Assembly (NCBI GenBank): GCA_947056845.1
Contig: CAMSCJ010000011.1
Location: 1-64,000, forward strand
DNA from: an uncultured Mycoplasmatota bacterium
GTDB taxonomy: Bacteria > Bacillota_I > Bacilli_A > RF39 > UBA660
Direction of reading: 5' to 3'
Length of the DNA: 64,000 bases
Shown here: positions 11,673 through 17,210 of the stretch, piece by piece
Numbering within the stretch: position 1 is the first letter of the stretch
Layout: every line of letters begins with the position of its first letter
Translations under genes and position numbers: made by a program
Notes under the pieces: generated by a model
Told to the model about the DNA's origin: nothing
Seen by the model: only the letters and a program-made list of their open reading frames with translations
The model's database searches: none

Positions 11673-11930
11673 CTATAATTTACTTATATAATCTTCCATA
11701 TTCTCTAAATTTTGACCCTTAAGAGGCTTACATTTTTTATACGCATTAATATCTTCACACATTTTTTTTGCCATACCACTACAACTTCCAAATCCACAAG
11801 CCCCACAATTATATCCTGGTAACAACTCTAAAAACTTCCCTTCCTTTTTGTTTTGTAATTTAGAATCTAGAATAACAATAATTAAACTAAGAAAAAAAGC
11901 TAATAAAGTCACAATTAAAATACCGATCAT
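11673..11930 (-). CDS. rnfB: minimal RnfB: membrane helix plus one 4Fe-4S domain
   Basis: An 85-residue protein with an N-terminal membrane helix (about 2-22) and the RnfB-type iron-sulfur motif: Cys42, Cys45, Cys50 and Cys67 in NCGACGFGSC...YKKCKP. Normal RnfB is about 190-330 residues and has one or more ferredoxin domains after this region. Here the reading frame stops cleanly and a terminator follows, so the protein is genuinely short, not frameshifted. Its ATG overlaps the stop of the 35-codon Cys-rich small ORF (TAATG), giving tight coupling. It should anchor a cluster next to RnfA/RnfE. Confidence 0.82.
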   Translation of the reverse strand: MIGILIVTLLAFFLSLIIVILDSKLQNKKEGKFLELLPGYNCGACGFGSCSGMAKKMCEDINAYKKCKPLKGQNLENMEDYISKL

Positions 11931-12037
11931 TATTTATCACCCTTGCATCTTAAACAATTCTGGCAATTTTTGCAACCTTTAGATTTATATAATAAAATAT
12001 TAAATAAAAATAAAATTGTTAAAATAATATAAGCCAT
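11930..12037 (-). CDS. small Cys-rich membrane protein (35 aa) inside the rnf operon
   Basis: This frame is too short for usual gene calling. It starts with ATG directly after the TAG of rnfA and its TAA shares a base with the rnfB ATG. It encodes a membrane helix (about 2-17), a KSKG linker, then four evenly spaced cysteines, Cys22, 25, 28 and 31, in GCKNCQNCLRC, and a charged tail. The CxxCxxCxxC pattern resembles ferredoxin loops and the FeoB-associated small Cys-rich membrane proteins. I infer a metal or Fe-S binding subunit of this Rnf complex. Junctions on both sides make it very likely to be translated. Confidence 0.75.
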   Translation of the reverse strand: MAYIILTILFLFNILLYKSKGCKNCQNCLRCKGDK

Positions 12038-12607
12038 CTATACACCTATAAAACGAGAAAATATAAGCGCCATTATAAAAGCTGTAATTAAAGCAATCGG
12101 ATAGCCTTTAAAATTTTTAGGAATTTGGCAATGCTCAAGTCTTTCACGTATACTTGCAAAAACATAAATAACCAAAGTAAAACCTATACTACTACCAATA
12201 CTAAAAACTAATGTTTCTATTAAATTATAATTACTATTAGAGGCAAGTAAAACTGTCCCTAATACAGCACAATTAGTAGTAATGAGTGGTAAATAAAGAC
12301 CTAAATTCTTATAAACAATGGGATAATATTTTTTTAATACAATTTCAACAATTTGCACAATTGCCGAAATAACTAAAATAAAAATAATGGTTCTTAAATA
12401 AACTGTATTAGTTGGAACTAAAATATATTTATAAATTAAAAATGTAAGCAAACTAGATAAAACAACAACAATCATAACAGAAAATCCCATCGATAAAGCG
12501 TTTTTTTCTTTATTTGATGTTCCAAAAAAAGGACACATACCTAAAAATTTTGTTAAGACAATATTCTCTGTAAAAATACTAAGCATCAATATACTAATTA
12601 GATTCAT
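12038..12607 (-). CDS. rnfA: Rnf complex membrane subunit RnfA
   Basis: A 189-residue integral membrane protein with about six helices, the normal family size. The signature TENIVLTKFLGMCPFFGTSN is near the N-terminus and NCAVLGTVLLAS is in the middle; their cysteines sit in the membrane and bind the intramembrane iron-sulfur site shared with RnfE. It starts inside the rnfE end (14-base overlap), with GGAGGATAACC before ATG. Part of the ferredoxin:NAD-type, ion-translocating electron-transfer complex. Confidence 0.95.
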   Translation of the reverse strand: MNLISILMLSIFTENIVLTKFLGMCPFFGTSNKEKNALSMGFSVMIVVVLSSLLTFLIYKYILVPTNTVYLRTIIFILVISAIVQIVEIVLKKYYPIVYKNLGLYLPLITTNCAVLGTVLLASNSNYNLIETLVFSIGSSIGFTLVIYVFASIRERLEHCQIPKNFKGYPIALITAFIMALIFSRFIGV

Positions 12608-13232
12608 GGTTATCCTCCTTTTTAAAAACCTTAAATAAAGCTATTAAGAAACCTAAAACAAGAAAAGCCCCAGCTCCTGATACAAAAATAGGATTAGGAA
12701 GTAAACTCATATCAGGATATACTTTATAGATGGCTCGGTAACCAGTTAGTTCACTTAAACTACTCATAAATGTAATTGTATTGGCACCCAATATCTCTCT
12801 AATAGAACCAATAAGCATTAAAGAAATAGTAAATCCAAGACCTATACCAATACTATCCTTAAAAGTATAAACAATATCCCTTTTACTTGCTACTGATAAA
12901 GCTCGTCCCAAAACCACACAATTAACAACAATTAGAGATAAATAAACGCCCAATTGCTCTGATAGTTTAGGTACATATTTATTCAATAGTAACTCTAAAA
13001 TCGTAACGACGGTTCCAATAATTAAAATATAGACAGGAATCCTAACATTATCAGGGATTATTTTTCTTATCAGACTAATAAGCCCATTTGATACACATAA
13101 CACTATCAAAAAACAAAGTCCCATCATATATGAACTTTCAAAATTAGTTGTTACAGCTAAAGCTGGGCAAAGTCCAAGCATTAATACAAAAAGTGGATTT
13201 TCATTAATTATTGTCCTAAATATTTGTTTCAT
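12594..13232 (-). CDS. rnfE: Rnf complex membrane subunit RnfE
   Basis: An integral membrane subunit paralogous to RnfA, with about six helices. It carries NPLFVLMLGLCPALAVTTNF at the start and VNCVVLGRA in the middle, the two cysteine-bearing half-sites of the intramembrane cluster. I place the start at ATG 13232 because GGAGGG lies 7 bases upstream. The open frame begins six codons earlier, inside the ribosome site, and would overlap the previous gene. The C-terminus ends in a charged cytoplasmic tail. Confidence 0.94.
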   Translation of the reverse strand: MKQIFRTIINENPLFVLMLGLCPALAVTTNFESSYMMGLCFLIVLCVSNGLISLIRKIIPDNVRIPVYILIIGTVVTILELLLNKYVPKLSEQLGVYLSLIVVNCVVLGRALSVASKRDIVYTFKDSIGIGLGFTISLMLIGSIREILGANTITFMSSLSELTGYRAIYKVYPDMSLLPNPIFVSGAGAFLVLGFLIALFKVFKKEDNHESN

Positions 13233-13242
13233 AATTACCCTC

Positions 13243-14073
13243 CTAACCAATCGTATAAATTCTTTTTATTTCGTTTAAAACAACTGCTTCGCAATCAAAT
13301 AAATTTTCGACTTGTTTATTATCAAAAACATAATTACAACCATCAATTAAATCACGCAATTGTCCTTCTCCTATAACATTGATAGCTGGAAAATAATATT
13401 TAGTATTATTATGTTCTAAAGATAAAGGATTAGAAATGTCATAAATTAAATAATCTTCCTTAGTTATTTTTACAATGTTATAAGAATGTAATTCTGATGT
13501 AATATTATCAATACCAAATTTTTCTAACTTTCCATAAATGAAATAACTATTTAATCCTAATAAACTTAAAATATTTTGCAAAATGGCTGATCTTTCTAAG
13601 CACATGGCAGCTCCTTTTTCTGTTAATTTGTGAACCGATAAACCTTCAACATCGAATATTTTATTTTGTAATTCACTAGAGTACTCACAATAAACTTCAT
13701 TACGTTTTTTTTGACTACCCATAAGGCCAAATGTATCAGTAAAGTAATTTTGCAAATCTTGAAACATTTTAATAATCTCATCTTCATTAATATGATTTTT
13801 ATATTTATTAATAAAATCATAATAAATATTTATATTATCTAAGTAAAATGCTTCAGCACTTTTAGAAGATTTTATTGGACTATTAGAAGAAATATAACCC
13901 TTATAAATCGATAAAACCCTATTATCCTCAGTTATACCCAATTTTTGTTCTTTTGTTCTTTTTTCTAACCACAAAACTCTATTTATGACATATTCTTTTA
14001 AATCATCATTATCTAAGTTTTTAATTTCTTTACTAACATTAGCAAAATCATCAACCTGAAAATTTCCATCCAT
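13243..14073 (-). CDS. transglutaminase-like (Cys-His-Asp) protein inside the rnf operon
   Basis: A 276-residue soluble protein. The C-terminal half has the order and spacing of a transglutaminase/papain-like triad: Cys158 in GAAMCLERSAIL, His196 in SELHSYNIV and Asp212 in LIYDISNP. The N-terminal half is helical and unassigned. No signal peptide is seen, so it is cytoplasmic. Its ATG shares one base with the stop of the 30-codon small ORF, and RnfE starts 10 bases after its stop, so it is a true operon member. Such domains can be peptidases, amidases or inactive binders. A role in Rnf assembly is only inference. Confidence 0.7.
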   Translation of the reverse strand: MDGNFQVDDFANVSKEIKNLDNDDLKEYVINRVLWLEKRTKEQKLGITEDNRVLSIYKGYISSNSPIKSSKSAEAFYLDNINIYYDFINKYKNHINEDEIIKMFQDLQNYFTDTFGLMGSQKKRNEVYCEYSSELQNKIFDVEGLSVHKLTEKGAAMCLERSAILQNILSLLGLNSYFIYGKLEKFGIDNITSELHSYNIVKITKEDYLIYDISNPLSLEHNNTKYYFPAINVIGEGQLRDLIDGCNYVFDNKQVENLFDCEAVVLNEIKRIYTIG

Positions 14074-14165
14074 TAATTAGTCCCCCTAAATACTAAATAG
14101 ATTAGTGTCGAACAAATTAAAGCTGTTAATGTTAAAGCCAAAATGGACTTTATTTTTTTACCCAT
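14073..14165 (-). CDS. 30-residue single-helix membrane peptide in the rnf operon
   Basis: An unlisted short frame. ATG at 14165 overlaps the end of the RnfD-G fusion gene by 8 bases (ATGGGTAA) and its TAA shares a base with the next ATG. The peptide has a KKIK start, one hydrophobic helix of about 18 residues with a Cys, and an FRGTN tail. The two coupled junctions argue for translation. It could be a small Rnf accessory subunit; no homologue is known to me. Confidence 0.6.
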   Translation of the reverse strand: MGKKIKSILALTLTALICSTLIYLVFRGTN

Positions 14166-15930
14166 TAGTATCACCTATATGTACCTTTAAAGTTTCGATT
14201 AAGGCTTGTTTTAAAGAGGTAGAAGTAATCGTGGCTCCAGCAACTGTATCAACATCTTCTAATTTAGATTGATTAGCAAGCAAATAATTAATATAATCAC
14301 TCTCTAGCACTTTTCCATAATAACTATCATTTTGTTCTAAAACAACAACACTAGTTATAATATTATCAATAATTGTAATATTTAATTTGAGTTTACTAGA
14401 AAAGCCTTTTTTAGTAACGATATATTCGTGTATATTGCCATTTATATTGTGTTCTAACACTTCAAAATCTTTATCAATAACAACATCGCCTTTTATCTCT
14501 TCATTACCGTTTTCTTTATAATCGTCTATTGTATTAATAAGCATCTTCTTTAATCCATTTGATGTAAATGTAACACCTGCTACTATATCAACATCGTTAA
14601 GTTTAGCTTGATTTTTAATTAAGGTATTTAAATAATTAGCCTGTGTAATTTTAGAATAATAACTATCATTTTGTTCTAGTATTTCATAAGAGACAACCTT
14701 ATCATTAGTTATAACTATTTTGGCTTTTAAAGTGCTACTATAACCTTTTTCTCCAACCATATATGCTACAGTATTACCATTTATCTCTTTAGAATAGATT
14801 TCAAAGTTTGGATCTATTTCTGTATCATTCCCTTTTCGGTAACCAATTCCAATATAGCAACTAATACCTAGCATTAAAATAATTAGAGTACTAAAATATG
14901 GTATTGACCTTTTTATATTAAAACGTGCTCGAACTCCAATTTTATCAATTATAAATACAAGCATATTCATAGTTAAAATACTAGTTAAAACGCCTTCTGG
15001 GTAAGGAGTTAGGTGTCTAAATACAATTGTTAAAATCCCAAGTGATATACCATATAAGGCTTGTCCTACAAAAGTAGTTGGACTAGTAACAGGATCAGTT
15101 GCCATAAAAACAGCTCCAAACATTAGTCCTCCACTTAAGATTTGAAATAATGAATAGGTACGTTCTAAATCATTAAATAAACCAATTATAAAGGCCATTA
15201 TAAAAACTGTTGATACATAAAAAACTGGAATTCGCCATTTAATCGTTTTCGTTAATGTTAAATAAAGAAAAGCAACTATACAAAGTAAAGCACTTGTTTC
15301 GCCAACAGCTCCAGGAATTGTTCCAACAAAAAAATTCATCAAACTTCCATAAGGTCTAACTAACTCGTTATAACTACCAATGCCTTCAACTAGACTGGCA
15401 TTCGTAAGGGGTGTTGATGAGGCAATCGTATCAAGTTCATAACTATTATGATAAACATATTTTCCAAAGGTAATTGCATAAGCTGTAATTATAAATATTC
15501 TTCCAACTAATGCAGGATTAAAAATATTATTCCCAAAACCTCCAAACAATAATTTACCAACCAAAGTGGCAACAAATGCTCCTAAAATAAGCATGGAAAA
15601 AGGTGTATTTAAAGGCATAATAAGTCCTAAAAATAATCCTGGATAAAAACTAAAAGAGTTTTTTACATATTTTAAAGCGTCAACTTTTAAAAAAATACTC
15701 GCATATAACATCTCGGTTAAAAAGGATGTTAAAGCTGGTAAAATAACAACCATTAATGGTAGAAATAAACCTTTTATATCAGTTAATCCATTTTTATATG
15801 GAATAATCCCATTTTTATAAAACGCAAATATAATAATTGGTAAAAGAGCAATAAATAAATGGAGCATCATCTTTGATGTTTTATTTTTTGAATTTAAAAA
15901 TGGTCCTTTTTCTACATCAAATGTTTTCAT
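14158..15930 (-). CDS. rnfD: RnfD fused to two RnfG-type FMN-binding domains
   Basis: A 590-residue protein. Residues 1-350 are RnfD: about ten membrane helices, FNPALVGRIF, and a STPLT site where Thr173 should carry covalent FMN. From about 375 to 588 come two FMN-binding (RnfG/NqrC-type) domains in tandem, each with KGxSS...ILEQNDSYY, ending in VAGVTFTS (Thr454) and VAGATITS (Thr567), the covalent FMN threonines. No separate rnfG gene exists in the operon, so the fusion replaces it. The gene begins on the last base of rnfC. A duplicated G domain would add one extra flavin. Confidence 0.9.
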   Translation of the reverse strand: MKTFDVEKGPFLNSKNKTSKMMLHLFIALLPIIIFAFYKNGIIPYKNGLTDIKGLFLPLMVVILPALTSFLTEMLYASIFLKVDALKYVKNSFSFYPGLFLGLIMPLNTPFSMLILGAFVATLVGKLLFGGFGNNIFNPALVGRIFIITAYAITFGKYVYHNSYELDTIASSTPLTNASLVEGIGSYNELVRPYGSLMNFFVGTIPGAVGETSALLCIVAFLYLTLTKTIKWRIPVFYVSTVFIMAFIIGLFNDLERTYSLFQILSGGLMFGAVFMATDPVTSPTTFVGQALYGISLGILTIVFRHLTPYPEGVLTSILTMNMLVFIIDKIGVRARFNIKRSIPYFSTLIILMLGISCYIGIGYRKGNDTEIDPNFEIYSKEINGNTVAYMVGEKGYSSTLKAKIVITNDKVVSYEILEQNDSYYSKITQANYLNTLIKNQAKLNDVDIVAGVTFTSNGLKKMLINTIDDYKENGNEEIKGDVVIDKDFEVLEHNINGNIHEYIVTKKGFSSKLKLNITIIDNIITSVVVLEQNDSYYGKVLESDYINYLLANQSKLEDVDTVAGATITSTSLKQALIETLKVHIGDTNG

Positions 15931-17210
15931 TATTTATTCTCCTTCCTAATTGTATCTTTAGCCTTTTGAACATAATCCCTAACCCTTATTTTTGATGGGC
16001 AAACATAAGTGCATAAACCACACTCGATACAACGATTGACTTCATATTTTTTGAGTTCATCAGGATTTTCACAATCGTTTTTAATTAAAACTGGAGCTAA
16101 TTTAGCTGGACAATATTTAACACAAAGTCCACATCTTAAACATTCAATACAGTTTTCTTGTTTTAATTTTGGTAAAACTAAAACACAATTTAAATTTGGC
16201 GTAATGACTAAATCATCACACTTCATACTATTACCCATCATTGGTCCACCAGCTATAAATAATAAATCATTAGTGTTTTTATATTTACAATATTTTTTAA
16301 TAATTTCACTAACTAGAGTTCCAAACTTTGCTTTGATATTAAGGGTTTTCTCTATCCCCTCACCAGTAAAAGTAACAATTCTAGAAAGTAAAGGTTTACT
16401 ATATTTTAAACTTTCGTAAATCGCATAAATAGTCGAAACATTATTAACAACCGTATTAACTTCAATTGGTAATCTATCATAAGATTTTTTCAAAATTTCC
16501 TCTACAATACTTTTTTCCCATCCCATTGGATAAAGATTTGGCATTAAATAAATTTTTATATTAGGAAATGTACCAATATATTTATTAAAAGCATTAATTA
16601 TTTTTGTATTTGTTTTTTTAATAGCGATATAAGCTTCGCTAATATTATTAATTTTTAAAATAGCATTTACACCTTCTAAAATTTCTTCAGCATGATCTAA
16701 AGCGAGAGTATAATCAGCGGTAATATAAGGTTCACATTCTACGGCATTAATAATTAAAGTTTTAATATTCTTATCAGTATCATATTTAGCAAAGGTTGGA
16801 AAATTTGCTCCACCTAATCCAACAATAGCATTATTTTTTAATATATCTATAAAGTTATCTTTACTAATTTTGGTAATGTCATCACATATTGGTATCTTTT
16901 TTTCCACTAATTCTTTAAAATCATTTTGAATTACAACACACTTTATTTTTTCACCATTTAAATAATACTTTTCTTCAAAACCAATTACAGTTCCACTTAC
17001 AGTAGATAAAATAGGGATTGGGAAATTTCCCTGTCTTTTACCTAGCGTAGTCCCCTTATATACATAATCATTTTTTTTAACGAAAACACTAATATTAGTG
17101 TCATATCCACTAATAAGAGGTATATATACATACTCGGGATTTAAATACTCGGTCAATTTATTTTTTAATGACATATTTTTTTTGCCGGAAATTTTAAAAC
17201 CTGTTACCAT
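15930..17210 (-). CDS. rnfC: Rnf complex peripheral NADH-binding subunit RnfC
   Basis: A 426-residue protein. The N-terminal barrel-sandwich part is followed by the NADH/FMN-binding fold with VGLGGANFPTFAKY (about 131-144) and NAVECEPYITADY. A SLBB-like region leads to two 4Fe-4S motifs near the C-terminus, CIECLRCGLCVKYCP and CIECGLCTYVCP. It is the first gene of the operon and overlaps the next ATG by one base. ATG with GGAG upstream. It exchanges electrons with NAD(H) on the cytoplasmic face. Confidence 0.95.
   Translation of the reverse strand: MVTGFKISGKKNMSLKNKLTEYLNPEYVYIPLISGYDTNISVFVKKNDYVYKGTTLGKRQGNFPIPILSTVSGTVIGFEEKYYLNGEKIKCVVIQNDFKELVEKKIPICDDITKISKDNFIDILKNNAIVGLGGANFPTFAKYDTDKNIKTLIINAVECEPYITADYTLALDHAEEILEGVNAILKINNISEAYIAIKKTNTKIINAFNKYIGTFPNIKIYLMPNLYPMGWEKSIVEEILKKSYDRLPIEVNTVVNNVSTIYAIYESLKYSKPLLSRIVTFTGEGIEKTLNIKAKFGTLVSEIIKKYCKYKNTNDLLFIAGGPMMGNSMKCDDLVITPNLNCVLVLPKLKQENCIECLRCGLCVKYCPAKLAPVLIKNDCENPDELKKYEVNRCIECGLCTYVCPSKIRVRDYVQKAKDTIRKENK

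Follow-up and report, generated by a model that had tools for sequence, protein, structure and literature searches.

A small cysteine-rich membrane protein that accompanies single-cluster RnfB in uncultured Bacilli

Introduction

Between rnfA and rnfB of an uncultured Mycoplasmatota bacterium lies an open reading frame of only 35 codons, raising the question of whether so short a frame is a gene and, if so, what its product would do for the Rnf complex. The frame is part of a 64,000-nucleotide stretch of genomic DNA (the window), and the original prediction described its product as an unannotated membrane protein with four regularly spaced cysteines that, beside an RnfB reduced to one cluster, could supply an extra iron-sulfur site or hold metal for assembly. 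We know of no described route by which Rnf acquires its iron-sulfur clusters, in RnfB or within the membrane, and to our knowledge all Rnf structures solved so far contain a long RnfB. Across a bacterial class a small protein accompanies the one-cluster RnfB, which makes it a candidate assembly factor or missing electron-entry part, and its size makes direct testing feasible. Our literature search, in which coverage of subscription papers was thin, returned no account of a short or truncated RnfB or of the small protein, and nothing linking the Rnf complex, Erysipelotrich and RnfB.

Results

The rnf operon encodes a single-cluster RnfB

The operon lies on the minus strand in the order rnfC, an rnfD-G fusion, a 33-aa ORF, a 276-aa ORF, rnfE, rnfA, the small ORF and a short rnfB. 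RnfC (15930-17210; TIGR01945, 2.6e-103) is followed by an RnfD that carries two fused FMN-binding domains of the RnfG type (14158-15930; PF03116 and two PF04205 matches), and further downstream by RnfE (12594-13250; TIGR01948, 1.1e-59), whose true start is probably an internal ATG after GGAGGG. The two RnfA cysteines expected to ligate the [2Fe-2S] cluster (C25 and C113 of the product of 12038-12607; TIGR01943, 1.9e-66) are invariant in our alignment A1. RnfB (11673-11930) has 85 residues, forming a TM helix and one [4Fe-4S] domain, and the single-cluster domain PF04060 is its only match (3.8e-8). Its alignment to the 174-aa Azotobacter vinelandii RnfB (8ahx_B) is confined to residues 38-79 of the latter, indicating that the C-terminal ferredoxin domain is missing and bearing out the prediction of an RnfB cut to one cluster. 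ApbE is also encoded in the host genome, in which no match to the FeoB_C domain was found.

Two further frames of the operon merit description. The 33-aa membrane ORF (14073-14174, minus strand) is, from its conservation and its likeness to RnfG N-termini, probably a detached RnfG N-terminal helix: one-helix ORFs of 30-33 aa are conserved between rnfDG and rnfE in G001, G002, G018, G123, G351 and other genomes, and the ORF in the window resembles the N-terminal helix of the free-standing RnfG proteins of the class. RnfG thus seems, from these sequence likenesses, to have been split, with the FMN-binding domains carried on RnfD and the anchor helix retained as a mini-protein. At the flavinylation motif the first RnfD-fused FMN-binding domain reads VAGVTFTS and the second VAGATITS, so that perhaps only one of the two is flavinylated. 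The 276-aa ORF (13243-14073, minus strand) has no convincing Pfam or NCBIfam match and looks transglutaminase-like by eye; it is conserved in G001 and G002, while other genera have a 179-aa ORF instead or none.

The small ORF is conserved in the host family

The small ORF occupies positions 11930-12037 and is read on the minus strand from an ATG at 12037 to a TAA ending at 11930, giving the product MAYIILTILFLFNILLYKSKGCKNCQNCLRCKGDK, in which one hydrophobic helix precedes a CxxCxxCxxC tail (C22, C25, C28 and C31), just as had been described. The gene is tightly packed, again as predicted: the rnfA stop codon TAG (12040-12038) abuts its ATG, and the final A of its own TAA (11930) is also the A of the rnfB ATG. 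Sequence context suggests a likely ribosome-binding site for the small ORF within the 3’ end of rnfA (AGGTG, 12043-12047, minus strand) and another for rnfB within the small ORF (AAGGGTG, 11938-11944, minus strand).

The original prediction depended on the frame and its cysteines being kept in relatives. The frame is open in two genomes of the same genus, G001 (63% identity) and G002 (53%). An rnfA homologue is present in 36 of the 193 genomes sampled from the host family (f1), and 32 of these 36 encode a similar one-helix ORF after rnfA (32-44 aa, 3-5 Cys). In nearly every rnf locus of the family a short RnfB comes next, and the ORF sought between rnfA and rnfB recurs at this place more than chance would allow; in G080 the locus is spread over two contigs whose pieces join up to place the ORF after rnfA. 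The sequence profile A3, built from rnfA-adjacent loci so that its positives arise partly by construction, gave 33 matches at E<1e-6 in 32 family genomes, all directly after rnfA, and the rest scored no better than 2e-4. Its absence from genomes lacking rnf is a fair test, and no A3 match at E<1e-6 was found in rnf-less genomes of the family. The small protein went undetected in four of the 36 rnfA-bearing family genomes: G119 and G123 have the short rnfB directly after rnfA, in G132 no rnfB comes after rnfA, and G028 has a distant homologue. Among the family loci read, L136, L137 and L138 lack the small ORF behind rnfA; in two of them a short rnfB is the next gene, and in L138 no rnfB is found there.

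The expectation of conserved cysteines held for C25, C28 and C31, which are invariant in 35 family sequences, but not for C22. The comparison of synonymous and nonsynonymous change gave dN below dS in nine of nine close pairs (0.26 and 0.66 for the window protein against that of G001), although selecting the pairs by protein similarity pulls dN downwards. Judged by these sequence comparisons, the small ORF is a real gene.

A longer version of the protein occurs through the class

Reading 80 further class loci downstream of rnfA revealed a longer version of the protein, of 53-83 aa, with an invariant C-x2-C-x(4-9)-C and the typical form helix-LNKKTPxPxGCExL...C-x2-C-x4-C. It is encoded between rnfA and a short RnfB of ~92-129 aa in families f2, f7, f8, f9, f10, f11, f13, f14, f19 and f21 and in single f12 and f16 genomes. 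In four f8 genomes (L176, L184, L190 and L208) RnfB is 183-192 aa long and consists of a helix and two tandem PF04060-type domains, with no ferredoxin domain. Three cysteines are invariant in each version, family and class; only three are present in 10 of 35 family and 8 of 31 class sequences, and their spacing varies, with CxxCxxC the commonest in the host family. The f1 and class profiles align in the helix only, and homology of the two Cys tails would accordingly rest on gene position, the helix and the Cys triad and not on a sequence score.

In f3, f5, most f12, most f16, f20 and f22, rnfB follows rnfA with no small ORF between them. The absence of the protein from these families that operon inspection had suggested proved wrong: with the class profile A4 (E<1e-6) it was found elsewhere in 24 of the 26 such genomes searched, and 11 of 11 controls were positive. 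By eye, and from sequence, the unlinked copies adjoin a phosphoglucomutase-like and a uracil-DNA-glycosylase-like gene in f22 and f20 and a dCMP-deaminase-like gene in f3, f5 and f16, while one f12 copy sits in a second complete rnf operon.

The small protein tracks one-cluster RnfB

Among 395 class genomes, mostly metagenome-assembled and 52-100% complete, A4 (E<=1e-8) detected the protein in 178 and an rnfA homologue was present in 212; both occurred in 176 and neither in 181, the two A4-only genomes being 85-86% complete. The corresponding Fisher value of 4e-72 takes no account of relatedness and serves as description only. The type of RnfB was established at ~120 loci, fewer than the 212 rnfA-bearing genomes.

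The 36 class genomes with rnfA and without an A4 match are instructive. Twelve of them have an Nqr operon in which an NqrF-like gene follows nqrE. Seven encode a full-length RnfB with ~25-30 Cys (G721 and G726 in f13; G502, G546, G557, G598 and G634 in f5, the G634 RnfB locus being cut by a contig end), while other members of f13 and f5 have the short RnfB and the small protein, so that the contrast holds within families. Six belong to f1, where the version is the short one; the copies in G641 and G491 are divergent; and in ~9 a short RnfB is present and a copy was not detected. No small ORF was found between rnfA and a full-length rnfB in 42 loci of named genomes, mostly Clostridia and Synergistales, and among the short-RnfB loci of named genomes the ORF is present in L044-L046 and L081 and absent from L087. 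The small protein thus tracks the one-cluster RnfB, and its proposed tie to a reduced RnfB is upheld by full-length-RnfB genomes without it even inside f5 and f13.

The Nqr operons of the same class encode no small Cys protein, despite containing NqrD/E, the homologues of RnfE/A. This weakens the idea of service to RnfA/E-type [2Fe-2S] clusters in general, and makes it unlikely that the protein has a generic part in that cluster. The Nqr-type operons L282-L289 (in f10 and f12) carry nqrB, C, D, E and F with no recognisable nqrA adjacent, and those of f10 encode very long NqrC-like proteins (650-850 aa).

Topology and relation to known families

An excess of Lys/Arg on the C-terminal side of the helix was observed in all 35 family and all 31 class sequences, which by the positive-inside rule predicts a cytosolic Cys tail. 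One TM helix with cytosolic cysteines is the defining trait of NqrM, and the predicted helix and C-side positive charge give the small protein the same layout. AlphaFold returned a confident helix only, leaving the tail at low confidence and without a defined site, and no relative was found among solved structures in the PDB. Neither Pfam nor NCBIfam has a name for the protein, in agreement with its description as unannotated; in uncultured Bacilli, the family libraries overlook a conserved part of a major energy-conserving complex. The NqrM profile PF04400 gave no match at E<=1 in 47 members or at E<=10 in ten, a search run without an NqrM positive-control sequence, and membership in NqrM was rejected. 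The nearest and only recurrent Pfam match is the FeoB-associated Cys-rich family PF12669, found in 18 of 35 family members at E<=1, with a best score of 27.6 bits against a cut-off of 27 and one member passing among the bit scores listed; the window protein itself has no PF12669 match, and its gene is adjoined by rnfA and rnfB and not by feoB. A plain FeoB accessory was rejected, there being no FeoB match and the scores falling short of the PF12669 cut-offs apart from that one member. Ferredoxin-type [4Fe-4S] carriers have four conserved cysteines at fixed spacing; three invariant cysteines at variable spacing were found here. We place the protein among the small, Cys-rich accessory proteins that serve membrane complexes dependent on metal.

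Discussion

The small protein is probably a dedicated helper or an extra part of the short-RnfB form of Rnf. Our best reading, tentative and close to evenly balanced, is a small accessory dedicated to the one-[4Fe-4S]-domain RnfB variant that delivers iron or Fe-S. The N-terminal helix would anchor the protein with its Cys tail in the cytosol. At the membrane the three conserved cysteines, together with the variable fourth, probably hold iron or an Fe-S cluster for a short time before passing it on to the complex, the most plausible target being the RnfB [4Fe-4S] cluster or the intramembrane RnfA/RnfE [2Fe-2S] cluster. We infer metal binding, delivery and target alike, and the role would be analogous to that of NqrM for Nqr. 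A cytosol-facing, metal-binding iron or Fe-S delivery factor is more likely than a fixed electron carrier: three invariant cysteines, drifting spacing and copies unlinked to rnf are easier to reconcile with assembly or the handling of metal than with a fixed redox centre. Delivery is consistent with the unlinked copies beside housekeeping genes in f3, f5, f16, f20 and f22 and with the conserved cysteines retained by RnfA; the lack of similarity to NqrM, an AlphaFold tail without a site, and G119 and G123, with a short RnfB and no detectable small protein, count against it. With no NqrM match and no copy in Nqr operons, the protein could at most resemble NqrM in function, and its target should be special to the short-RnfB complex. 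The presence of ApbE suggests that the FMN side is served separately.

A resident electron-transfer subunit, in which an Fe-S cluster held by the cysteines replaces the C-terminal ferredoxin domain of RnfB, accepts electrons from soluble ferredoxin and passes them to RnfB or RnfA/E, would account for the pairing with one-cluster RnfB and the absence beside full-length RnfB (also within f5 and f13), for a gene placed between the two electron-exchanging subunits, and for the predominance of CxxCxxC spacing in the host family. We nevertheless regard it as unlikely, if a serious contender: the fourth cysteine is missing from 10 of 35 family and 8 of 31 class sequences and the spacing is variable, so that a fixed four-Cys redox centre is not the simplest reading and transient iron or cluster binding is; several families encode the protein far from rnf; G119 and G123 do without it; and the retained RnfB [4Fe-4S] domain could accept electrons directly. 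Rather doubtful, too, is the stronger form of the proposal, that such an Fe-S subunit stands in for the lost ferredoxin domain to make a split electron-entry module from two very small membrane proteins. The helix is the only confidently predicted part of the protein and the family complex, which seems to keep the detached RnfG helix as a mini-protein, appears to tolerate helix-only parts, so a structural or docking subunit is conceivable, its helix packing on the membrane subunits of the short-RnfB complex and its tail holding zinc, forming disulfides or sensing redox state; yet no residues other than the cysteines are invariant, the helix sequence is weakly conserved and disulfides are rare in the cytosol, where the tail is predicted to lie, making this improbable.

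Reading the protein as a FeoB-associated Cys-rich protein would explain why PF12669 is its only recurrent Pfam match and why both are small, with one N-terminal helix and a Cys-rich tail. We consider it very unlikely, because the profile matches are weak, the window protein has none, the host genome lacks a FeoB_C match, there is no feoB context and the small protein tracks rnf. A further difference is the motif given for PF12669, Cx3-5Cx2-3Cx6-8C (PMC8749426). That the frame stands open by chance between two coupled genes, as its very short length and lack of a database name might suggest, is scarcely credible and was rejected on its conservation in family and class: frame, position and cysteines are kept across families, and dN is below dS in all nine pairs, pre-filtered as these were for protein similarity.

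We compared the protein with known systems. Like NqrM, it is a small membrane-bound protein with one TM helix and cysteines that is encoded with a homologous pump; it is shorter, has no profile match and belongs to short-RnfB Rnf and not to Nqr, and its Cys pattern differs from that of NqrM. Kostyrko et al. 2016 are said to have described NqrM with a single TM helix and four cysteines. NqrM is thought to be needed for inserting the [2Fe-2S] cluster of NqrD/E, the RnfE/A counterpart (PMC12174285). The N-terminal part of RnfB (TIGR01944), encoded by the adjoining gene, likewise has one helix followed by a cytosolic Cys tail, but the small protein has no PF04060 match and a different Cys pattern, and the RnfB N-terminal part is encoded separately next door. 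Nor is the protein among the subunits tabulated in a 2025 review of Rnf and Nqr, as expected from its supposed absence from described Rnf complexes; the sole extra subunit there is RnfH (PMC12174285). RnfH, of Azotobacter vinelandii Rnf1, is likewise an addition to RnfABCDGE, but it is cytoplasmic and without redox cofactor (PMC12174285).

Extra copies of the small Cys protein were also seen in f3 and f12 genomes (L229 and L234), near heavy-metal-associated-domain-like and copper-transport-ATPase-like genes, neighbours that hint at a metal role.
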